Source: Gemmatimonadaceae bacterium (GTDB lineage Bacteria; Gemmatimonadota; Gemmatimonadetes; Gemmatimonadales; Gemmatimonadaceae). Taken from it: DNA of 64,000 bases. A program made the translations under genes and the position numbers. Below, in pieces: positions 6,693-54,341 of the stretch (position 1 is the stretch's first letter; every line of letters starts with the position of its first letter). The stretch lies in contig JBBJNV010000021.1 in NCBI GenBank assembly GCA_037721215.1, positions 1 through 64,000 on the forward strand, given 5' to 3'. The notes below the pieces were generated by a model. That model made no database searches, had not been told where the DNA came from, and was given only the letters and a program-made list of their open reading frames with translations.

Positions 6693-8777
6693 TTACCCGC
6701 CGGCCGTCGCATCGATGGCGAAATCACGCAGGTGGCTGAATTGCACTTCGGTGCTGACCGGCCGCTTCCGTCCACTCAGAATCCGGGCCCATTCAACTGC
6801 CGAAGCAACGAGAATCACCAGTACCGAAACCATGAAGAAGCCGGCGACCGCGGCGTCGAGACGATCGTTGAAAATCATTCTGCGCGCGGCTTCGATGGTT
6901 TGAACGCCGGGCGGAAGATTGCCGGCCGCAATGAAGCCTTCGAGCATTCTGGCATGTGAAAGGAAGCCCAGCCTTGGATTGTCTGAGAAAATCTTGAGCC
7001 AGCCACCGGTCAGCGTGATGACCGTGAGCCATGATAACGGAAGGATCGTCGTCCACGCGTAACGTGCCTTGCCCATTTTGATGATAACAGTCGTGCCCAC
7101 ACAGAGCGCGACAGCGGCGAGCAGCTGATTGGAGAGCCCGAACAGTGGCCAGAGAGAATTGATTCCTCCCAGCGGATCCATCACGCCCTGATAGAGAAAG
7201 TATCCCCACATTGCCACGAAAACGGCGCTCGAACCGACGACTGCGGGATACCACGAAACGCGACCTATGGGAGCCCATATATGTTTGCCCAGATCCTGCA
7301 GCATGAACCTGCCGACCCGCGTCCCCGCGTCGAGCGTCGTGAGAATGAACAAGGCCTCGAACATGATGGCGAAGTGATACCAGAGTGCCATCGCACCGCT
7401 GCCGCCGAACACCGACGAGAAGAGGCTGGCCATGCCGACCGCCAGGCTCGGAGCGCCGCCCGTTCGTGAGAGCAGTGATGTTTCTCCCACCTGGCGCGCG
7501 AGTGATTCCATCTCGCCCGGTGCAATGCTGAATCCCCACGTCTGAATAGCCGCCGCTGCGCTCACCGCGGTCGTGCCCAGCGCCGCAACCGGAGCGTTTA
7601 TGGCAAAATAGACTCCGGGTGTCAGCACGCACGCCGCAATCAGCGCCATCACAGCAACGAGTGATTCGGTGAGCATCGCCCCATAGCCGATCATCCGTGC
7701 GTCGGTCTCCCGTGCGATGAGCTTGGGAGTCGTTCCGGAAGCGACGAGCGCGTGGAACCCGGAAATCGCACCGCACGCGATGGTGATGAACACAAAAGGA
7801 AAAACCTTGCCGGCGAAAACGGGGCCCGTCCCGTCAGTGAACTGCGTCACTGCGGGCATTTGGAGCGGTGGCAGGACGATGAGAATCCCAAGCGCGAGCG
7901 CGATGACGACGCCGATTTTCACAAACGCCGAGAGGTAATCGCGCGGCGCGAGCAGCAACCAAACCGGCAGCACCGACGCCGCAAAACCGTACCCCATGAT
8001 AAGCAGAGCGATGGTGGGCCCGCTCAACGTGAAGATCGGCGCCAGCACCGGATTCTCCGCCACCCAGCGGCCGGCATATAGCGCAAGGATCAGCAGGACA
8101 ACTCCGATTGCGGATGCCTCGAGTACGCGGTGCGGACGGAGCCAGCGCATGTAGCCGCCCATCAGCATCGCGATCGGTATAGTCAAGCCGATGGTCACGA
8201 CTCCCCACGGGCTCGATTTAAGAGCGTTGACGACGACCAGCGCCAGCACGGAGATCAGAACAATCATGATGCCGAGAACAGCGACAAGCGCGGTGTATCC
8301 CGCAACGGGGCCGATCTCGTCCTTTGCCATCTGGCCGAGCGACTTGCCGTCGCGGCGAAGAGATGAACAGAGGATAACGAAATCCTGCACTGCTCCGCCC
8401 ACCGCCACTCCGACGATGATCCAGAGCGCGCCCGGCAGAAAACCGAACTGCGCCGCGAGGGTGGGGCCAACCAAGGGCCCCGGGCCGGCAATCGCGGCGA
8501 AGTGATGCCCGTAGACAATCCACTTGTTGGTGGGTGTGTAATCCCGGCCGTCGTTCAGCCGGACCGCCGGAGTGGCGCGCTGGTCGTCGAGCTCAAACAC
8601 CTTTGCGCTGATGAAACGACTGTAGATGCGGTACGCAATGATGTACGTGCACACGGCGGCCGTCAGCAACCACGCGGCGTTCACCGACTCGCCCCGGGAA
8701 AGCGCGAGCCATGCGAAACTGGCTGCGCCGAGCAGGGCCGTCAGCACGAGCAGAATCGGCTCTGTTATCTTGCGCAT
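6693..8777 (-). CDS. cstA: CstA-family transporter (carbon starvation protein A)
   Basis: About 694 residues and many membrane segments. Family hallmarks are YTPTNKWIVYGHHFAAIAGPGPLVGP near the N-terminus, SSLRRDGKSLGQMAKDEIGP, and SGFHALVASGTTPKL in the middle. CstA and its relatives import peptides or pyruvate under carbon limitation. I chose the ATG at 8777 (MRKITEPILL); an in-frame TTG at 8816 would add 13 residues without membrane character. The S9 peptidase follows after about 120 bases and then a YbdD-type gene, so the usual cstA-ybdD pair is interrupted by a peptidase. Confidence 0.95.
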   Translation of the reverse strand: MRKITEPILLVLTALLGAASFAWLALSRGESVNAAWLLTAAVCTYIIAYRIYSRFISAKVFELDDQRATPAVRLNDGRDYTPTNKWIVYGHHFAAIAGPGPLVGPTLAAQFGFLPGALWIIVGVAVGGAVQDFVILCSSLRRDGKSLGQMAKDEIGPVAGYTALVAVLGIMIVLISVLALVVVNALKSSPWGVVTIGLTIPIAMLMGGYMRWLRPHRVLEASAIGVVLLILALYAGRWVAENPVLAPIFTLSGPTIALLIMGYGFAASVLPVWLLLAPRDYLSAFVKIGVVIALALGILIVLPPLQMPAVTQFTDGTGPVFAGKVFPFVFITIACGAISGFHALVASGTTPKLIARETDARMIGYGAMLTESLVAVMALIAACVLTPGVYFAINAPVAALGTTAVSAAAAIQTWGFSIAPGEMESLARQVGETSLLSRTGGAPSLAVGMASLFSSVFGGSGAMALWYHFAIMFEALFILTTLDAGTRVGRFMLQDLGKHIWAPIGRVSWYPAVVGSSAVFVAMWGYFLYQGVMDPLGGINSLWPLFGLSNQLLAAVALCVGTTVIIKMGKARYAWTTILPLSWLTVITLTGGWLKIFSDNPRLGFLSHARMLEGFIAAGNLPPGVQTIEAARRMIFNDRLDAAVAGFFMVSVLVILVASAVEWARILSGRKRPVSTEVQFSHLRDFAIDATAGG

Positions 8778-8841
8778 GAGGATGGAAGGCTGGAGTGAGG
8801 CGGTGAAAATGCTCAACGGTTATGTTTCCCGCAATCACATC

Positions 8842-9534
8842 ATGTCCTCCCTGACGAACGTCTTCTCAGCGCTGCTTTTTTCCGCCGTCGTCATGCAGGG
8901 TTGCGGCGGCCCGCGGCCGGCAGAAAGTGGGGCTGCCAATCCACTGCCGGTGCAGCCGCTCGCATTCATGGCGGGGCGCCCGCTGGTGATTCTTCCCGTG
9001 CAGCATGTGTCGGTTCAGGACAGCGCCGCCTGGGCCGTCGACCTGGCGCGACGGGGCGAGTACGAGGAGCTGAGAGACCCTACGCGGCGCGCCGCGTTCC
9101 TGGTTTCGGTGGATGAGCGAATCGCGGCCGAGCTCACCGAGCGGGGTCTGGAGAAAACGTGGACCTTCGCGCCGGCGATCGTCGAAGCGGCCGGACGAAG
9201 CGGCGGAATTGTCGGCGACCCCCGGGCGATTTCGTCGGCCGGCCTGCGCCGTCTCATAAAACCGTCGGACGACCCACTTGGCCAGCCGCTCGCATCCCAA
9301 ATTCGATCGATGGCCGCTTTCAGAGATGCGCGCTACGTACTGCTGCCTGTCGAGCTTCGGGTGGGAAACCGTGGCGGGCTCCGGCAGGGCACGTTGCGAA
9401 CCTATCTGATTGACACTCGGACATCACGTGTGGTGTGGTCTGGCGACATTACCGCAGACGGTAAGGCCTCGTTGCGGCCCGGTGTGGCAGACGCCATCGC
9501 GACAGCGCTGGCGGATCTCGCAGTGGCTCGGTGA
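8842..9534 (+). CDS. Predicted lipoprotein, unknown function
   Basis: About 230 residues. The N-terminus (MSSLTNVFSALLFSAVVMQGC) is a lipoprotein signal with cysteine at residue 21. The rest has no membrane segment. The portions RPLVILPVQHVSV, DARYVLLPVELRVGN and SRVVWSGDITADG read like the alternating strands of proteins that build a score or report from a helper pathway, but I do not recognise a family. The frame is open further upstream; the ATG at 8842 is the best start because it begins the signal peptide. It is divergent from cstA and followed after seven bases by a metallophosphoesterase. Confidence 0.75.
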   Translation: MSSLTNVFSALLFSAVVMQGCGGPRPAESGAANPLPVQPLAFMAGRPLVILPVQHVSVQDSAAWAVDLARRGEYEELRDPTRRAAFLVSVDERIAAELTERGLEKTWTFAPAIVEAAGRSGGIVGDPRAISSAGLRRLIKPSDDPLGQPLASQIRSMAAFRDARYVLLPVELRVGNRGGLRQGTLRTYLIDTRTSRVVWSGDITADGKASLRPGVADAIATALADLAVAR

Positions 9535-9541
9535 CGAAGGG

Positions 9542-10363
9542 ATGACGACAGTGTTTCACGTATCCGATCTCCATTTCGGCCGGCCCGCTGTCCCCGCCCA
9601 GATCGAGGCGATCGAGGCGCTGATTCAGACCGAGAAGTTCGACGTCGTCGCCATCTCCGGTGATCTGTCGCAACGGGCGCGGGCGGGCGAGTTTCAGCGC
9701 GCGGCAGTGTTCATCCGCGATGCAGAGCGAGTGAGTCGCACGATCACCGTGCCCGGGAATCACGACGTGAAATGGTGGCGAGCCCCGATGGGGGTTGGCG
9801 GCGTTCGGAAGATGTACGACAACTACGTTCGATTCATCTCGGCCGACCTGGAGCCGGTGCTTCGGGTCCCGGACGTGACCCTGGTGGGGATAAATACATC
9901 GCATGGGGTTACTTCACGGACGCTGACTTGGAACATGCGGGACATCTCGATCATCGGCGATATCCGGCGCGAGCAGTTTGATATCGCAGAGGCTGCCTTC
10001 GCGACGGGAGAGCCGGGTAATGCGCGGGTAATCGTAATGCATCACAACCCCGTGAAAGGTGAGCTATCGAAGCGCCACGGGCTCAAGAACACAAGAAAAA
10101 TTCTGGGCGCGTTCGCCGCGATGGGGGTGGACCTCATACTGTGCGGTCATGACCACCAGGAGTCGGTGCACTACGTCGAGCACACAAAAAAAGGCACTGT
10201 GATTTCAACGGCCGGAACAGTGTCCAGCAGATCACGCGGGGGCCGGCCTTCGTCAGTGAATGTGATCGATATCGGAGCTGATACCATCGATGTCACGACA
10301 CGAATCTGGTCGAGCGAAAGCATGACCTTCGTCGCGGGGCCCCACCGCTGCTTCGAGCGTTAG
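9542..10363 (+). CDS. Calcineurin-like metallophosphoesterase
   Basis: 273 residues. The metal-binding motifs are in order: SDLHFG (DxH), AISGDLSQR (GD), VPGNHD (GNHD), MHHNP, and CGHDHQE (GHxH). The set is complete, so a dinuclear-metal phosphoesterase is expected. The class III adenylate-type phosphodiesterase family is the closest in motif spacing, but the substrate (cyclic nucleotide, phosphodiester or other) is not determinable. The ATG at 9542 begins directly before the conserved VFHVSDLHFG strand, seven bases after the upstream lipoprotein gene. No signal peptide, so cytoplasmic. Confidence 0.9.
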   Translation: MTTVFHVSDLHFGRPAVPAQIEAIEALIQTEKFDVVAISGDLSQRARAGEFQRAAVFIRDAERVSRTITVPGNHDVKWWRAPMGVGGVRKMYDNYVRFISADLEPVLRVPDVTLVGINTSHGVTSRTLTWNMRDISIIGDIRREQFDIAEAAFATGEPGNARVIVMHHNPVKGELSKRHGLKNTRKILGAFAAMGVDLILCGHDHQESVHYVEHTKKGTVISTAGTVSSRSRGGRPSSVNVIDIGADTIDVTTRIWSSESMTFVAGPHRCFER

Positions 10364-10446
10364 GCCGTTTCCTAGGATTTCGGAGAGTCCAGGAACAGCT
10401 CTCGCTCGAGCTGGAAGCGCCGCCGCGTAACGGAAGAGAACTTCAG

Positions 10447-11064
10447 TTGCGTCTGATGGCGCTGGGGCTGAACGACGGATATCAGTGTCAGTTGACGAAC
10501 AACAGGACAGTGGTCGTCAGCTTCCGCAACCGCGTGCTTCGCGTTCACAGCGGATATCTGAATGCGCCTGACAACATTCTTCGGGCGATCGTTGTGTTCG
10601 TACAGGGCCGCACGAAGGCCGATCGGGCGGCTGCGCGTCGCGTTCTGCTTTCGCATGAGCTGTCGCACGAGCACCATCTCAATCCCCGGAAACGGCGCGC
10701 CCGCGAACGAACGCATCGGGACGATGAACGGTGGTCAATCGACATGGCTCACCATCACGCTGCTTTCAACGACGCGAAGTTCAGCGGCGAGCTCAGGTCA
10801 ATCCCGATCAGGATCTCGCGGAGGATGAAGAGCCGGCTCGGGCATTATACATGGAGCGGGCCAAGGGGGCGGGGAGCCGAAATCGTCATCAGTCGCAGAC
10901 ACATCGGACTTCATCGGCGGGAGGAAGTGCTGCATACCCTGCTGCATGAGATGGTTCACCAGTGGCAGGATGAGCAGGGGCAGCGCGTCGATCACGGACG
11001 GGGATTTCGCGCAAAGGCAAGGGCTGTCGGCATTGCTCCGAAGGCTTGTCGGGAGGTCGCATAA
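10447..11064 (+). CDS. SprT-like domain protein (zinc metalloprotease fold)
   Basis: 205 residues from a TTG start. The C-terminal part has the SprT signature: VISRRHIGLHRREEVLHTLLHEMVHQWQ with HEMVHQ (HExxH), followed by DHGRGFRAKARAVG (third His region). An upstream region ending in RAIVVFV precedes a basic stretch. The frame remains open upstream of 10447 with plausible coding sequence (RVQEQLSLELEAPP) but without ATG, GTG or TTG, so the real start is unclear. SprT relatives include proteases acting on DNA-protein crosslinks; this role is only a possibility here. Confidence 0.8.
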   Translation: MRLMALGLNDGYQCQLTNNRTVVVSFRNRVLRVHSGYLNAPDNILRAIVVFVQGRTKADRAAARRVLLSHELSHEHHLNPRKRRARERTHRDDERWSIDMAHHHAAFNDAKFSGELRSIPIRISRRMKSRLGHYTWSGPRGRGAEIVISRRHIGLHRREEVLHTLLHEMVHQWQDEQGQRVDHGRGFRAKARAVGIAPKACREVA

Positions 11065-46717: not shown

Positions 46718-48265
46718 ATGGGTATTTGGTCTAAAAAGAGCATTGTGGGGCTGCAAACCGAAGCGGCGGGTGAGGAAGGAACTCACACCCTCAAGCGCGC
46801 GCTCGGCGCGCTGAATCTGACGACGCTTGGCATTGGTGCCATCATTGGCGCTGGCATTTTCGTGCTGACAGGTACCGCCGCAGCGCAGTACGCCGGTCCG
46901 GCAATCGTGTACTCGTTCATCTTTGCCGGGCTCGGCTGCCTGTTCGCCGGTCTATGCTACGCGGAGTTTGCGGCGATGATTCCCATTGCCGGCAGCGCGT
47001 ACACCTATGGATACGCGACGCTTGGCGAGTTGACTGCCTGGATCATCGGGTGGGATCTCATCCTCGAATACCTCTTCGGTGCGGCGACCGTTGCCGTGGG
47101 TTGGTCGGGGTACTTCACTGCGTTTATGAACGAGCTGGGATTCCGGCTGCCGATAGCGTATACATCATCCCCCCTGGGAATCGAGGGCACTCACTCCTTC
47201 GTGAGAAACAGCATTTGCTTCGATCCGGCGACCAATCAGACTATCAGGGTTGCGGCTGAGACCGTTTGCGACACCAGTCGGTATTCGGTTGCACAGGGCG
47301 TCATCAATCTCCCCGCGATGATCCTCGTCGGCCTGATGACGGCGCTGCTGGTGATCGGCATCAAGGAGTCCGCGCGGTTCAACAACGTGATTGTGATCGT
47401 GAAGATGCTCATCGTTATTCTCGTGATCGGCTTCGGGTTCATGTACGTGAACTCGGACAACTGGCGTCCGTTCATGCCCGAGAATACCGGCACATTCGGT
47501 CAGTTCGGGTGGACAGGTGTCGTGCGCGGCGCGGCGGTGGTGTTCTTCGCGTACATCGGGTTTGATGCTGTGTCGACTGCCGCTCAGGAGGCAAAGAATC
47601 CACAGCGGGACATGCCAATCGGAATTCTCGGTTCTCTGGCCATCTGTACGGTTCTTTACATTCTGATGGCGCTCGTCATGACCGGGCTTACCAAGTACAC
47701 GAACCTCGACGTTCCGCATCCCGTGTTCGTAGCGATCGCGGCCGCTGGCCCGGCACTGGCGTGGCTCCGGCCGATCATCAACATCGGAGCGATCGCCGGT
47801 CTCGCGTCGGTGGTGCTTGTGATGTTGATGGCGCAGCCGCGCATTTTCTATTCGATGTCGCGCGACGGTCTGTTGCCGCCGGTGTTCGGAAAAATTCACC
47901 CGAAGTTCCAGACGCCTTACATCACCACGATCATGACCGGTGCGGTCTGCGCGGTGATCGCCGGACTGTTCCCGATTGGTCTCCTCGGTGAGCTGGTGTC
48001 GATTGGCACGCTGCTCGCCTTCGTGATCGTATCGGCCGGCATCATCGTGTTGCGACGCAAGAGTCCCGAGATTCCGCGGCCGTTCCGCACCCCGCTCGTC
48101 CCGATTGTTCCGATTCTGGCCATTCTCATCTGCGGTTACATGATGGCGAGTCTCCCGGCCGACACCTGGATCCGGCTTGGCGTGTGGCTCGCAATCGGCC
48201 TGTTGATCTACTTCCTGTATGGAAAGGCGCACTCGCGCATCGGACGTTCGGAAGCGAGTGGTTGA
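46718..48265 (+). CDS. APC-superfamily amino acid permease
   Basis: 515 residues with 12 or more membrane segments. The start LKRALGALNLTTLGIGAIIGAGIFVLTG is the APC first-helix motif, followed by LCYAEFAAMIPIAGSAYTYGYATLGELTAWIIGWDLILEY, typical of the cationic amino-acid transporter branch. Probably imports an amino acid; the substrate is not readable. The stop overlaps the GTG start of nrnA, so the two are transcribed together. Confidence 0.93.
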   Translation: MGIWSKKSIVGLQTEAAGEEGTHTLKRALGALNLTTLGIGAIIGAGIFVLTGTAAAQYAGPAIVYSFIFAGLGCLFAGLCYAEFAAMIPIAGSAYTYGYATLGELTAWIIGWDLILEYLFGAATVAVGWSGYFTAFMNELGFRLPIAYTSSPLGIEGTHSFVRNSICFDPATNQTIRVAAETVCDTSRYSVAQGVINLPAMILVGLMTALLVIGIKESARFNNVIVIVKMLIVILVIGFGFMYVNSDNWRPFMPENTGTFGQFGWTGVVRGAAVVFFAYIGFDAVSTAAQEAKNPQRDMPIGILGSLAICTVLYILMALVMTGLTKYTNLDVPHPVFVAIAAAGPALAWLRPIINIGAIAGLASVVLVMLMAQPRIFYSMSRDGLLPPVFGKIHPKFQTPYITTIMTGAVCAVIAGLFPIGLLGELVSIGTLLAFVIVSAGIIVLRRKSPEIPRPFRTPLVPIVPILAILICGYMMASLPADTWIRLGVWLAIGLLIYFLYGKAHSRIGRSEASG

Positions 48266-49295
48266 TCTACTAACAGTCCCGGAACGCAGAAAAGAAGCGA
48301 TCGAGCGTCTCGCGCGGGAGTTCCGCGCGGGGCGCTCTGTTGCAATCTCCACCCACATCAACGCCGACGGCGACGGCTGCGGGTCGGAAGCGGCACTGGC
48401 GCGAATTCTCACGTCGCTGGGAATGACCGTGCAGATCGTCAATCCAACGCCTTGGCCGGAGACTTTTGATTTTCTTCTCGGGGTCGAGGTGGTCGACGCA
48501 TCGTCTCAGGGCGCGGGAGCGCTGAGCAAGGCGGATCTCCTCGTCGTGCTCGACATCAGTGACGTAAAGCGGCTTGGTGTTCTCGCGGACACCGTGAGAT
48601 CACTCAGAATTCCCAAAGTCGTCATCGACCATCACATCCCGAGTGACGAACCGCCGAGCGATAACATGCTCGCCGACACTACAGCGTGTGCGACGGGCGA
48701 ACTGATTTACGACGTGGCCGTCACGCTCGGCGTCGAGATAACTCCGCAGATCGCTCTTGCACTCTACGTGGCGATGCTGACTGATACCGGCGGTTTCAGA
48801 TTCAGCAATACCAGCGCGCGGTGTCTGTCGGTAGCTGGCCAGCTGCTGGCCGCTGGGGTGGAGCCGGAGGAGATGTACAGGCGCCTGTACGCATCACATC
48901 CAGTTGGTCGCCTGCATCTGTTGCGTGATGCATTGGCAACGCTGGAAGTGGATCCGGCCTACGGAATTTCGTGGATCTCGGTTGCGGCTGGTGCCGCTGA
49001 AGAGTATGGGCTGAAGTCGGAGGACCTCGAGGGTATCGCCGAGCATCCGCGCTCTGTGGGAGGAACGCGGATGGCTGTTTTCTTTCGTGATCTCGGGCAT
49101 GGGAAGATCAAGGTATCGTTCCGGAGCACTGGTGCGGTGGACGTCAATGCATTTGCGCGGCAGTTTGGAGGAGGGGGGCATGCGAAGGCTTCAGGGGCGT
49201 TGATTCCCGGAACGCTCGAGGAAGTGCGCTACAAAGTGATTGCCGCCGCGCGTGAATTCGTAGGGGCGCAGGAGGCCGTTACGACAGTTCGATAA
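48258..49295 (+). CDS. nrnA: NanoRNase/pAp phosphatase-like DHH phosphoesterase
   Basis: About 345 residues. DHH-family metal motifs: STHINADGDGCGSEAAL (DxD), VVLDISD, VIDHH (DHH) and LTDTGGFRFSN. The DHHA1 domain ends with GHGKIKVSFRS and FGGGGHAKASG. It hydrolyses very short RNAs and/or pAp in the cytoplasm. I prefer the GTG at 48258, which overlaps the permease stop and has GGAAG upstream; ATG at 48219 is possible. A diverged, broken second copy of its last 240 bases lies at 54100-54341. Confidence 0.92.
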   Translation: MVDLLTVPERRKEAIERLAREFRAGRSVAISTHINADGDGCGSEAALARILTSLGMTVQIVNPTPWPETFDFLLGVEVVDASSQGAGALSKADLLVVLDISDVKRLGVLADTVRSLRIPKVVIDHHIPSDEPPSDNMLADTTACATGELIYDVAVTLGVEITPQIALALYVAMLTDTGGFRFSNTSARCLSVAGQLLAAGVEPEEMYRRLYASHPVGRLHLLRDALATLEVDPAYGISWISVAAGAAEEYGLKSEDLEGIAEHPRSVGGTRMAVFFRDLGHGKIKVSFRSTGAVDVNAFARQFGGGGHAKASGALIPGTLEEVRYKVIAAAREFVGAQEAVTTVR

Positions 49296-50019: not shown

Positions 50020-51063
50020 ATGAACATTGATATTCTCGACTGCACGCTTCGCGACGGAGGATACCAGAACGCGTGGAATTTTTCCGGACCACTGGTAACT
50101 CGATACCTTCGCGCACTCGACAAGACAGGGTGCCGGTACGCCGAGATGGGATATCGTGCATGCGCCACTGACAGTCTTGCCGGCCGTTATCGATACTCTC
50201 CTGACCATCTGCTGCGCAGCCATAGCGCGGGTCTGCGCCTCAAAGTGGCGGTGATGATCGACGGAAAGACGATGTGCAACGCCTCGGGAATGCCCGATCT
50301 GGCCCGCCTCGAGACGCTATTCTGCCGGCGGGATCACAGCCCCGTCCACATGGTCCGCATCGCGGCGACTGTGGAGATGGCCGGGCCCGTGTCGACGATA
50401 TGCGGGTGGCTGAAGGACCGTGGTTACGTCGTGGCGATCAATCTCATGCAGGCCAGCATGCTCGAGCCACAGTCTATCCGACAGGCGGCCGCGACACTCG
50501 ATCGGTCCGGCGCAGACTTCGTGTATCTCGCCGATTCTTTCGGCGGCCTCACGCCTGATGCCACGATCACGAAGATCGCCACTCTTGCATCCTCATTTCG
50601 GGGACGCGTAGGCTTTCACGCCCACGACAACATGGGCCTCGCTTTCGCGAACACTCTTGCGGCAATGGGCGCCGGAGCTACGATCGTCGACTCGTCGGTG
50701 CTCGGCATGGGCAGGGGAGCGGGGAATCTTCGGACAGAGCAACTGCTCGCGTATCTCGAGAAGACGGGTCGCTCCGATATCGCCGCTGCCCCGCTGTTTG
50801 AGCTACTGGCGACGGATTTCGCCGCGCTGCACTCGCAATGTGAGTGGGGCCCGTCGCTGCCGTACCTGGTGACGGGCATCCACGACATTCATCCGACTTA
50901 CGCGCAAACGCTGCTTCGCGATCCACGAGCAGGAGCGGTGGATTCGGTCCGAACCCTGGAATCGCTGAGCCACAATCCCGATCGGACGACGTTCAACGCC
51001 GCGACACTCGAGGCGGCGACGAATCACCGAAGCGCCGCAGGCCGCCGCGTTGGATCCGCGTGA
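50020..51063 (+). CDS. DRE-TIM metallolyase-type aldolase (HMGL-like)
   Basis: 347 residues. DILDCTLRDGGYQNAW carries the DxTLRDG metal/catalytic motif, and RVGFHAHDNMGLAFANTLAAMGAGA carries the HxHxD-like metal ligands. VDSSVLGMGRGAGNLRTEQLLAYL follows the 4-hydroxy-2-oxovalerate aldolase pattern. It would join or split a 2-oxo acid and an aldehyde, using a divalent metal. Being first in an operon with a KdsB-like gene, a role in making a 2-keto sugar acid is plausible. Homocitrate- or isopropylmalate-type synthase activity is unlikely because their long regulatory domain is absent. ATG at 50020 chosen over upstream open frame. Confidence 0.88.
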   Translation: MNIDILDCTLRDGGYQNAWNFSGPLVTRYLRALDKTGCRYAEMGYRACATDSLAGRYRYSPDHLLRSHSAGLRLKVAVMIDGKTMCNASGMPDLARLETLFCRRDHSPVHMVRIAATVEMAGPVSTICGWLKDRGYVVAINLMQASMLEPQSIRQAAATLDRSGADFVYLADSFGGLTPDATITKIATLASSFRGRVGFHAHDNMGLAFANTLAAMGAGATIVDSSVLGMGRGAGNLRTEQLLAYLEKTGRSDIAAAPLFELLATDFAALHSQCEWGPSLPYLVTGIHDIHPTYAQTLLRDPRAGAVDSVRTLESLSHNPDRTTFNAATLEAATNHRSAAGRRVGSA

Positions 51064-51842
51064 CCGCCGTGGCTGAGCTGCTCGATGACGTGAAGGGCGT
51101 GATGGTGGTCATCCCGGCGCGGTACGGTTCTTCGCGCTTTCCGGGTAAACCGCTGGTCCCGATCTGTGGCATGCCGCTCGTGCTCCGCGTACATGAGCGC
51201 GTGGCGCGCGCGGTTCCCAGCGGGCAAATCATCGTCGCCACTGATGACGATCGAATAAGACGCGTTTGCGAAGCGGCTGGCGTGCGGGTCGTCATGACCT
51301 TCTCCGGATGTGTCACCGGTACCGACCGTGTATGGGAGGCGGTGCGCGACCTCCCTCGCGAAGCCGAATGCGAACTCATTGTCAACGTTCAGGGAGATGA
51401 ACCGTTGGTCGCGGCCGACGACATCATCGCTGTCATTCGGGCAAAGCGCAGGCATCCGGACAAGGTTATCAACGCGATGTGTTCGATCGGGTTGCCTGCT
51501 GAAATCGAGAGTGAGAATGTCCCAAAGGTCGTTGCGACAGATGACGGCCGTCTTGTCTACATGTCGAGGTCGCCTGTCCCGTTCGTAAAGCGCGCCGGGT
51601 CGGAGCAGCGTTTCCGTCGACAGGTCTGCATCTATGCTTTCTCGCGAGTCGAGCTCCAGGCTTTCGCTGCGTTTGGCCGCCAGTCCTGGCTCGAACTGCC
51701 TGAGGACATTGAGATCCTGAGGTTTCTCGACATGGGCATCGGCGTGCAGATGGTCGATGTGGCCGGCGCGTCGGTGGCCGTGGACGTGCCGTCGGATGTC
51801 GCGCGCGTTGAAGCGATAATGGCGCTCGAGGCCCGCCGATGA
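51060..51842 (+). CDS. CMP-Kdo synthetase-like cytidylyltransferase
   Basis: 260 residues from a GTG overlapping the aldolase stop. VMVVIPARYGSSRFPGKPLVPICGMP is the nucleotide-binding start of KdsB, with VATDDDRIRRVCEAAGV, SGCVTGTDRV-like SGT(D/E)R, and LIVNVQGDEPLV. The C-terminal ELPEDIEILRFLDMGI matches the KdsB EHIEMLEQLR region loosely. It would activate Kdo or another ulosonic acid with CTP. The divergence from classical KdsB and the neighbouring aldolase favour an uncommon substrate; ordinary Kdo remains possible. Confidence 0.85.
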   Translation: MTAVAELLDDVKGVMVVIPARYGSSRFPGKPLVPICGMPLVLRVHERVARAVPSGQIIVATDDDRIRRVCEAAGVRVVMTFSGCVTGTDRVWEAVRDLPREAECELIVNVQGDEPLVAADDIIAVIRAKRRHPDKVINAMCSIGLPAEIESENVPKVVATDDGRLVYMSRSPVPFVKRAGSEQRFRRQVCIYAFSRVELQAFAAFGRQSWLELPEDIEILRFLDMGIGVQMVDVAGASVAVDVPSDVARVEAIMALEARR

Positions 51843-53122
51843 ACGCTGCTCCTCCCAGCTCGCTTCGGCGTGGCATCAGGACGCAGATCCGAAACGACAG
51901 CTCGCCGATGGTCTCGGAGATCGTGAAGTATGTGCTGGCGGAACGTCGCGCGGTGAGGTGGCTCGACGCCGGCCTGCGATCAACCGCCGCAACTCCACTG
52001 CCGGACTACTTCGCGGTTGCGAATGGCATGAGGTGCTTTGCCAGCATGCGGCCGGTGGGAACCGCCGGTGGCGTTCTGACCTGCGCAAGACGGGAGAATG
52101 AACTCCGCGCCGTAAAGGATCTGCGTGAATCGCTGGGCGATCTGCCATGGACCGACATCGAGTTCGGTTACAGGGGCGCACTCGTCCCGCTCGGCTCGAT
52201 GACGAAAGGCATCCGCCACCTCACCCGGGCAGCACGACTCGCCAAAGGGCTTCGCCGCAGGCACGACATGTTCCACGTTCTTCGTGCGCTCGAGCTGGTG
52301 TTCTACTACGACCGGATTGGACAGATACTCGATCGTGGTGGCTACCGCGTCGCCGTCATGTCGTCGTACTCGAACCCCTGGGGAATCGCAATGAACCTCG
52401 CAGCGAGGCGCCGCGGCATCCCGGTAGTTCACGTCATGCACGGCGAGCCGGTGTGGCCGCTTCCACGGCTCGACTACGATCTGGCGATCGTAAACAACCA
52501 GGCGTCGTACGAGCTGCTGTGCCGGGCGGGCTGCAGAATCGACCGGGTAATCGTCAGGAGTGCTGGTGCGCGCTACCGGCCGTTGCCTCTCGCATTGCCG
52601 CAGCGAAATATGACAGTGGGGCTGTTTCTTTCGAAGCAGCCTCGCAAGGAATGCGTGATCGCCTGGATACGCGGCCTGCTCTGCACCGAGGGGGTCGAAT
52701 CCATCCGGCTCAGACCGCATCCCGCGAACCTGTGGACGGGCATCGACGCTGCCATGAGAGAATTCCCCCGCGATCGTGTCAACCTCTCCAGCGCTTCGGC
52801 AGACGATGACCTTCGGCGATGCGACCTGGTGATTGCCGGGAATTCGTCGGTGCACATTGATACGCTGACCGCGGGTGTTCACTCGGTGTACTCCAGAGAC
52901 CTTGATCATTCCGCCGGAGGTCTTTCGCTTCTCGCCGAGGGTCTCGTCTTCGAGGCTGACGTTGCCGGCTCGATGCGTGCCGACGACGTGCTCCGATTTT
53001 ACGGAGCACCAGAGTGGATTTGTGAATTTCGCCGGCATGTAAATCTGGATAGCGACGACGCCCACGCAGGAAACGAGATGCGATCGGCCTTCAACCAGTT
53101 TTTGTCGGCCGTTGCGGCGTGA
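51839..53122 (+). CDS. GT-B-like surface-polysaccharide transferase
   Basis: 427 residues. A poorly conserved N-terminal half contains VAVMSSYSNPWGIAMNLAARRRGIPVVHVMHG, and the C-terminal half has VGLFLSKQPRKE, IRLRPHPANLW and CDLVIAGNSSVHIDTLTAG. This resembles capsule/CDP-glycerol transferases and sialyl- or Kdo-transferase-like proteins that share the RxHP and GNSS motifs. No membrane segment. Probably transfers the CMP-activated sugar made by the preceding genes, but donor and acceptor are unproven. Starts in the KdsB-like stop (ATGA). Confidence 0.7.
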   Translation: MNAAPPSSLRRGIRTQIRNDSSPMVSEIVKYVLAERRAVRWLDAGLRSTAATPLPDYFAVANGMRCFASMRPVGTAGGVLTCARRENELRAVKDLRESLGDLPWTDIEFGYRGALVPLGSMTKGIRHLTRAARLAKGLRRRHDMFHVLRALELVFYYDRIGQILDRGGYRVAVMSSYSNPWGIAMNLAARRRGIPVVHVMHGEPVWPLPRLDYDLAIVNNQASYELLCRAGCRIDRVIVRSAGARYRPLPLALPQRNMTVGLFLSKQPRKECVIAWIRGLLCTEGVESIRLRPHPANLWTGIDAAMREFPRDRVNLSSASADDDLRRCDLVIAGNSSVHIDTLTAGVHSVYSRDLDHSAGGLSLLAEGLVFEADVAGSMRADDVLRFYGAPEWICEFRRHVNLDSDDAHAGNEMRSAFNQFLSAVAA

Positions 53123-54207
53123 CCGGGCGCAGATGGTTCATAGTAAAGCTCGGAATTGCCGGGGGACTTTTCGGCATGCTTGCCATCAATGGACGGCTGT
53201 CGCTCGAAACCGCATATCGGGTGCTGTCCGATCCAGTGACATGCGCCTCCCTGATCGGCTTGCAGATACTCATTCTGTTGGTCGGTGTGTATCGCTGGCG
53301 GTTGATACTCGCAGCGCTCGGACACCAGCATTCCTACGGCAGTCTGCTCGCATGGAACTGGATTGGGCAGTTCTTTGGCACGGTTGCTCCCTCCGCCGTG
53401 GCAACGGATGCAACGCGCTTCGCATACCTCCGCCGCGACGGTTGCCCGGCCGGTGTCGCGGCGAAATCGCTTGTGGTCGACCGACTGTGCGGGGTTGCCG
53501 GTTCGTTGCTGGTCGCGGTGGTTCTCGGCGTCCGCATGATTCCCGTCGTCTTCGACGCTCCAATGAGATCGGCTTTGATCTGGGCGGCGCTGAGCTTGCT
53601 GGGAGCCGGCCTGCTTCTCTGGCGGCTCCGGCACCATCGCTTTGCACAGGCCGCGGCCGATCGGGTCTGGTCCGGATTCAGCGCAGCCAGGTCAATGAAG
53701 TGGGTGGCGGCGACCAGCGTCGCGATTACGGCGGTAGCTCTAATCCTGAAGGTTGTTACTATATGGCTGATTGGGCATGCATTGGTGCCCGATGCCCAGC
53801 GACTTTCGCGGATCTTTGAAGTGGCGCCGATTGGATTTCTCGCCGAGTCGCTGCCGTTCACGCCGGGTGGCTTTGGAACGGCTCATCTCGCGTTCGAGTA
53901 TCTGTTTGCCGCCGCGGGCATTGCGGGCGGAGCCGGGTATTTCAACGTGTATTTCATCGTGAGGCTTCTGACGAGCCTGTTTGGCGGAGTCCTCTGGCTG
54001 GCGCTTGACGGGGGGCGGCCACGCAATAATGTCATGATGCAGCGCCAGGCGGAGGGGACAGGTGGCGGATGTTCCGATGTATCACGACGGGTTCGCGGGA
54101 GTTTCAGGACGCGCATGGCTGTGTTCTTCCGGGATCTGGGCCATGGCAAGATTAAGGTGTCGTTCAGGAGTACGGGTGCAGTGGATGTGAACGCATTCGC
54201 GCGGTAG
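53119..54207 (+). CDS. UPF0104/LPG-synthase-TM-type membrane protein with foreign C-terminus
   Basis: 362 residues from a GTG overlapping the previous stop. Seven or so membrane segments. Motifs WNWIGQFFGTVAPSAVATDATRFAYLRRDG, AKSLVVDRLCGVAGS and AESLPFTPGGFGTAHLAFEYLF mark the lysylphosphatidylglycerol-synthase transmembrane (UPF0104) family, often in polysaccharide loci and possibly lipid-linked sugar translocators. After LALDGGRPRNN the frame runs into an nrnA fragment, adding RMAVFFRDLGHGKIK and so on (about 35 residues) up to a stop. The native end of the protein has thus been replaced. Confidence 0.85.
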   Translation: MTGRRWFIVKLGIAGGLFGMLAINGRLSLETAYRVLSDPVTCASLIGLQILILLVGVYRWRLILAALGHQHSYGSLLAWNWIGQFFGTVAPSAVATDATRFAYLRRDGCPAGVAAKSLVVDRLCGVAGSLLVAVVLGVRMIPVVFDAPMRSALIWAALSLLGAGLLLWRLRHHRFAQAAADRVWSGFSAARSMKWVAATSVAITAVALILKVVTIWLIGHALVPDAQRLSRIFEVAPIGFLAESLPFTPGGFGTAHLAFEYLFAAAGIAGGAGYFNVYFIVRLLTSLFGGVLWLALDGGRPRNNVMMQRQAEGTGGGCSDVSRRVRGSFRTRMAVFFRDLGHGKIKVSFRSTGAVDVNAFAR

Positions 54208-54341
54208 TTCGCCGGGGCGGACACGCCAAGGCGTCTGAAGCTTTCATAACTGGAACGCTAAAGGAAGTGCGTTGTTACAAGGTCATTGCCGCCGTTCGTG
54301 AGTTCGTCGGGGCGTTGAACGTTACGGAGACAGGTCGATGT
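54100..54341 (+). pseudogene. Second, diverged copy of the nrnA 3' end
   Basis: Aligned with 49057-49295, the segment encodes the same 31 residues (RMAVFFRDLGHGKIK to VNAFAR) while about 17 of the 31 codons differ at synonymous positions. Then a CAG-to-TAG stop and a one-base loss destroy the frame, yet nucleotide similarity continues to the end of the gene (GGAACGCT, GTGATTGCCGCC-like, TTCGTCGGGGCG). It is therefore not a recent duplication but a related lineage's nrnA end that decayed recently. With the intact nrnA it brackets 49296-54100 as a direct repeat. Confidence 0.88.

Follow-up and report, generated by a model that had tools for sequence, protein, structure and literature searches.

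The operon and its insertion site

The window analysed here, 64,000 nucleotides from the genome of a Gemmatimonadaceae bacterium, contains a forward-strand operon of four genes that begins downstream of an nrnA gene and runs into a second, degenerate copy of that gene's 3' end. The features that we refer to are the following:

48219..49295, + strand: gene for an NrnA-like DHH phosphatase (DHH and DHHA1 domains); left flank and insertion site
50020..51063, + strand: HMGL-fold aldolase, P0001, 347 aa (PF00682, 6e-30); candidate maker of a 2-keto sugar acid
51060..51842, + strand: KdsB-like CMP-ulosonate synthetase, here KdsB2, P0002, 260 aa (CTP_transf_3, 1e-37; above the cut-off of the KdsB subfamily model NF009905)
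51839..53122, + strand: putative GT-B-like glycosyltransferase, ORF3, P0003, 427 aa (Glyco_transf_4, 1e-4, below cut-off)
53119..54207, + strand: UPF0104/LPG_synthase_TM membrane protein, ORF4, P0004 (PF03706, 3e-24, residues 27-273)
54109..54339, + strand: degenerate second nrnA 3' end (76% identity to 49065-49293); right edge of the cassette

The four genes overlap in series, and the ORF coordinates reproduce exactly the GTGA, ATGA and GTGA junctions that had been read in an earlier note on this DNA. Pfam and NCBIfam agree with the families named there for the aldolase, the KdsB-like protein and the UPF0104 protein; for the glycosyltransferase the match is weak. KdsB activates Kdo, and the acid is usually made by KdsA or NeuB; we confirm that the operon itself has no KdsA, KdsC or NeuB gene. 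Upstream of the operon lie genes for IMPDH, an amino acid permease and the NrnA-like phosphatase, and promoter and terminator scans return matches at chance level only.

The nrnA gene is conserved in 18 of 19 congeneric genomes, and the aldolase is absent from the sampled congeners. We compare the site between nrnA and a CN-hydrolase gene in loci L183 (genome G016), L184 (G276), L186 (G246) and L187 (G438). The two genes are about 0.4 kb apart in two sister species and 7.1 kb apart in the window, and three congeners carry 3.2-3.7 kb of other genes at this site (in G016, by our reading of the translations, GT2-like, methyltransferase-like and membrane proteins). No tRNA is found at the insertion site. 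The two nrnA 3' ends (49065-49293 and 54109-54339) form a direct repeat, and the UPF0104 ORF enters the second copy in frame: the last ~58 residues of ORF4 match the nrnA ends of sister species and are an nrnA 3'-end remnant rather than flippase sequence (DHHA1 match of 0.003 over residues 305-361), downstream of a nearly complete UPF0104 domain. This arrangement fits a history in which glycan cassettes have been swapped at the 3' end of nrnA, and the four-gene operon looks like a horizontally acquired cassette at a variable site.

ORF3 has no family or PDB match above cut-off, Glyco_transf_4 being its only family match at all. Its one relative among 298 genomes of the phylum (26% identity) comes from a locus that also encodes NeuB and two CTP_transf_3 proteins, and the gene after it codes for a UPF0104 protein; the putative GT/UPF0104 pair thus occurs with CMP-ulosonate genes twice, in a single comparison. 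This second occurrence in a NeuA-NeuB cluster lends indirect support to the earlier proposal that the transferase attaches the acid, the glycosyltransferase assignment itself being weak. Viral contigs yield one distant relative of ORF3.

A predicted pyruvate aldolase

The AlphaFold model of P0001 (pLDDT 95) has the HMGL/DRE-TIM fold with a C-terminal helical part and D12, H200 and H202 as predicted metal ligands, a combination seen in pyruvate aldolases of the DmpG/BphI type (EC 4.1.3.39); these three residues and R11 are invariant across 48 aldolase sequences. The best structural match is 3dxi (Z 37.9, 30% identity), which is BVU_2661, a putative aldolase of Bacteroides vulgatus that has the signature DCTLRDGGY in common with P0001; it is a structural-genomics entry to which, as far as we know, no function has been assigned. 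The model matches pyruvate aldolases of the DmpG/BphI/HsaF type over the whole chain with Z of 35-36, whereas alignments to acetyl-CoA-using synthases are partial, with Z of 29 and lower. Fold and motif together suggest that P0001 would use pyruvate.

The likeness to DmpG, BphI and HsaF covers the full-length predicted fold, the LRDG motif and the metal ligands, but P0001 is only ~20% identical to these enzymes and sits in a polysaccharide context. The catalytic His of their DGSH motif is Tyr15 in P0001 and Tyr in most of its relatives as well, an acylating aldehyde dehydrogenase partner is not found in the window operon, and P0001 scores 120 bits against the NCBIfam equivalog for 4-hydroxy-2-oxovalerate aldolase, for which the cut-off is 286.

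Most aldolase relatives (L019-L098) carry an extra C-terminal domain of ~190 aa that P0001 does not have. This domain is weakly MptE-like (PF01973 in 12 of 25 members); a GT42-like assignment was dropped because the profiles point, weakly, to PF01973 instead. In phages we find distant HMGL proteins only.

Aldolase and synthetase genes are linked across bacteria

The neighbour survey that the earlier note had suggested finds a same-strand cytidylyltransferase, that is, a CMP-sugar-acid synthetase, near 71 of the 80 best aldolase relatives in a bacterial genome scan (31-42% identity, many phyla), a set whose loci are not phylogenetically independent and whose query alignment held two KdsB-linked Leisingera sequences. 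Neighbours are scored by HMMs, with the synthetase sought on the same strand from -2.5 to +6.5 kb. In 61 of the 80 loci it lies 1.0-3.2 kb downstream (44 KdsB-like and 17 NeuA-like, the types being counted separately); an HAD phosphatase is present in 59, and both genes are present in 56. By simple gene calls, the cytidylyltransferase is the next gene for 44 of 74 aldolases; for the remaining genes of these loci the figure is 28 of 825. The aldolase-activator pair recurs in Pseudomonadota, Bacteroidota, Bacillota, Cyanobacteriota and Omnitrophota. In the window, the aldolase adjoins, and indeed overlaps, a same-strand CTP_transf_3 synthetase, and the HAD phosphatase seen beside so many relatives is missing from the operon.

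On a quick tree of the aldolases, about 15 changes of partner type (KdsB-like, NeuA-like or none) are required, and even among closely related Halomonas aldolases some have a KdsB-like partner and others a NeuA-like one. Because the partner type switches so often, the link between aldolase and synthetase is not simply inherited. Relatives outside the linkage group, in Niallia, Priestia, Mesorhizobium, Paraburkholderia and Legionella, have no synthetase beside them. In Streptomyces (L009, L078, L085, L090) the aldolase is directly followed by an HAD phosphatase, with no cytidylyltransferase detected, and a DapA-like gene upstream of the L009 aldolase hints at another use of the family. Since the synthetase is missing beside all of these relatives, not every family member is part of the module.

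The Brenneria module has no DNA match in E. coli, which leaves no serotype of solved structure for comparison, and the 'aldolase' of the K96 capsule is set aside because it is YjhH, a differently named enzyme. A search of the open-licence literature returned no description of an aldolase-KdsB module.

KdsB2 belongs to a separate clade

On a quick tree P0002 falls among 47 aldolase-linked KdsBs (SH-aLRT 95) and does not group with the KdsBs of the Kdo/LPS pathway. The host's own canonical KdsB lies outside this KdsB2 clade, with the non-aldolase-linked KdsBs of the same hosts; the canonical side also holds five KdsBs from aldolase loci, one adjacent to the aldolase and four further away. The closest solved relative of P0002 is KpsU.

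P0002 keeps the KdsB fold and the CTP-site residues R21, S24, R26, K30, R90, Q111, D113 and D246, and the CTP site is identical between the aldolase-linked and canonical groups. The sugar side is another matter: P0002 does not have the canonical His, Gln, Phe and Tyr. A His that is invariant in 26 canonical KdsBs is Gln in 47 of 47 aldolase-linked ones, and Gln, Phe and other positions invariant in the canonical set are changed in all 47 or nearly so. The invariant His and Gln presumably contact Kdo in E. coli KdsB. The class changes from canonical KdsB to KdsB2 are T to N138, A to L165, F to M168, R to K177, H to Q188, G to C190, Y to F194, L to I217 and Q to I219, and class-wide differences are concentrated in the second half of the protein. 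In A. aeolicus KdsB, the second half is assigned to Kdo binding and dimerisation (PMC3149649).

Other sugar-acid genes in the host and in related genomes

Targeted searches of the host assembly (3.5 Mb, 45 contigs) locate on contig C7 a canonical kdsB-pyrG-kdsA-kdsD locus, which makes the KdsB of the window a paralogue. Contig C9 holds NeuB and a CTP_transf_3 protein within a gmd/fcl/ABC-transporter polysaccharide locus, in which all product names except CTP_transf_3 are our reading of the translations. This CTP_transf_3 protein (L104, positions 8446-10503, 685 aa) is a fusion of the CTP_transf_3 domain to an apparent class III aminotransferase. A search of the host genome for a module-type HAD phosphatase, run without a positive control, found none.

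Among 40 module hosts tested, KdsA is present in 35 and absent in five. In four of the five this absence is weak evidence because the genomes are metagenome-assembled or come from single cells; the two Prochlorococcus genomes among the five have a true NeuB. The isolate Rossellomorea aquimaris carries aldolase, KdsB and HAD; there we find no KdsA and no true NeuB, the sole NeuB-like match being a DAHP synthase/chorismate mutase, and the aldolase-linked KdsB2 is its only strong CTP_transf_3 protein. This leaves the aldolase as the only recognised candidate maker of the KdsB2 substrate in this organism. Bacillus sp. ISL-41 has kdsB-kdsA-kdsD followed, about 2.3 kb on, by aldolase-KdsB2-HAD (L083, 3102-10995); a single locus of this Gram-positive bacterium thus holds two apparent ulosonic acid routes, which points to a different acid from each.

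Proposed pathway and alternatives

We consider it probable that the product of the cassette is a CMP-activated 2-keto(-3-deoxy) sugar acid other than Kdo, made and put to use through the following pathway. The metal-dependent HMGL-fold aldolase would join pyruvate, as the nucleophile, to a sugar aldehyde, replacing KdsA or NeuB; in most relatives the HAD phosphatase, for which the window operon has no gene, would then remove a phosphate. KdsB2 would couple the free acid to CMP, ORF3 would attach it to an acceptor, either a glycan or a lipid, and ORF4 may assist at the membrane, where the earlier note has it moving the lipid-linked product. Here we infer the direction of the reaction, the use of pyruvate, the acceptor aldehyde, the donor of the transferase and the role at the membrane. 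The core of this scheme, in which the aldolase makes and the KdsB-like protein activates a non-Kdo acid, had been put forward in the earlier note; it is well supported as a prediction from sequence comparison by the conserved linkage, the swapping of partners, the dedicated KdsB clade with its changed sugar-side positions and a host with neither KdsA nor NeuB detected. With HAD phosphatases so frequent in the loci of relatives, the aldehyde may often be a phosphorylated sugar, and a missing HAD in the window could mean that the aldehyde is free, that some unrelated phosphatase acts or that the gene has been lost. This gap, the shorter aldolase without its relatives' C-terminal domain, and the Tyr in place of the DmpG His count against the pathway, as do the seeding and phylogenetic dependence of the linkage set and the weak glycosyltransferase assignment.

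KdsB2 could instead be a second CMP-Kdo synthetase, comparable to the KpsU of group 2 capsules, that draws on Kdo from the C7 KdsA and leaves the aldolase to act elsewhere. We think this unlikely. P0002 does pass NF009905 with KpsU as its best solved relative, and the C7 KdsA would make Kdo-8-phosphate in the host just as a KdsA is at hand in most other hosts, but the KdsB2 clade stands apart from the KdsA-linked KdsBs, its canonical His, Gln and Phe positions are altered throughout or nearly so, R. aquimaris has a KdsB2 with no KdsA found, and ISL-41 keeps a kdsB-kdsA-kdsD set beside its aldolase, KdsB2 and HAD. That the aldolase modifies some other sugar (for example with a pyruvate-derived branch), with the CMP-sugar acid coming from elsewhere and the genes being neighbours through a common polysaccharide, we regard as quite improbable. 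The loci are indeed polysaccharide clusters in which many sugar genes are mixed, and the Streptomyces, Niallia and Mesorhizobium relatives manage without a synthetase; yet the excess of synthetases as next gene is measured against other genes of these very loci, two unrelated synthetase families have been recruited repeatedly, and R. aquimaris has no other recognised maker of a 2-keto acid.

Whatever holds for the relatives, the window cassette itself may be a decaying, non-functional insertion, as the nrnA remnant joined in frame to ORF4, the lack of a module-type HAD in the genome, the short aldolase and its absence from sampled congeners might suggest. We give this little credence: each of the four ORFs is uninterrupted, stop and start codons overlap closely, the metal ligands and the CTP-site residues have been retained, little of the UPF0104 domain is missing, and HAD is likewise undetected in 21 of the 80 relatives' loci.

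The preferred reading, a cassette for a CMP-activated acid other than Kdo, borrows its logic from two known systems. With the KdsD-KdsA-KdsC-KdsB pathway to CMP-Kdo it has in common the order of acid synthesis, dephosphorylation and CMP activation and a synthetase of the KdsB family; it differs in that an HMGL-fold aldolase takes the place of KdsA, that its KdsB comes from a separate clade whose sugar-side residues are altered, and that the HAD, absent from the window operon, is of another subfamily. It resembles NeuB-NeuA in that C-C bond formation would give a 2-keto acid that is then activated with CMP, and many relatives of the window aldolase are paired with NeuA-like synthetases, but the operon has no NeuB and its aldolase belongs to another fold family (PF00682).

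What this analysis adds is that the window pair is one instance of a module found widely in bacteria, whose KdsBs form a clade of their own. Whether this module amounts to a third widespread CMP-ulosonate route beside KdsA and NeuB, in which an HMGL-fold aldolase, a KdsB/NeuA-type synthetase and usually an HAD phosphatase serve a so far undescribed acid or one to which no pathway has been assigned, we regard as evenly balanced. If it does, many KdsB or '4-hydroxy-2-oxovalerate aldolase' annotations in polysaccharide loci would be wrong, and an unassigned acidic surface sugar would be predicted for bacteria from Prochlorococcus and Pelagibacter to Halomonas and Bacillus.
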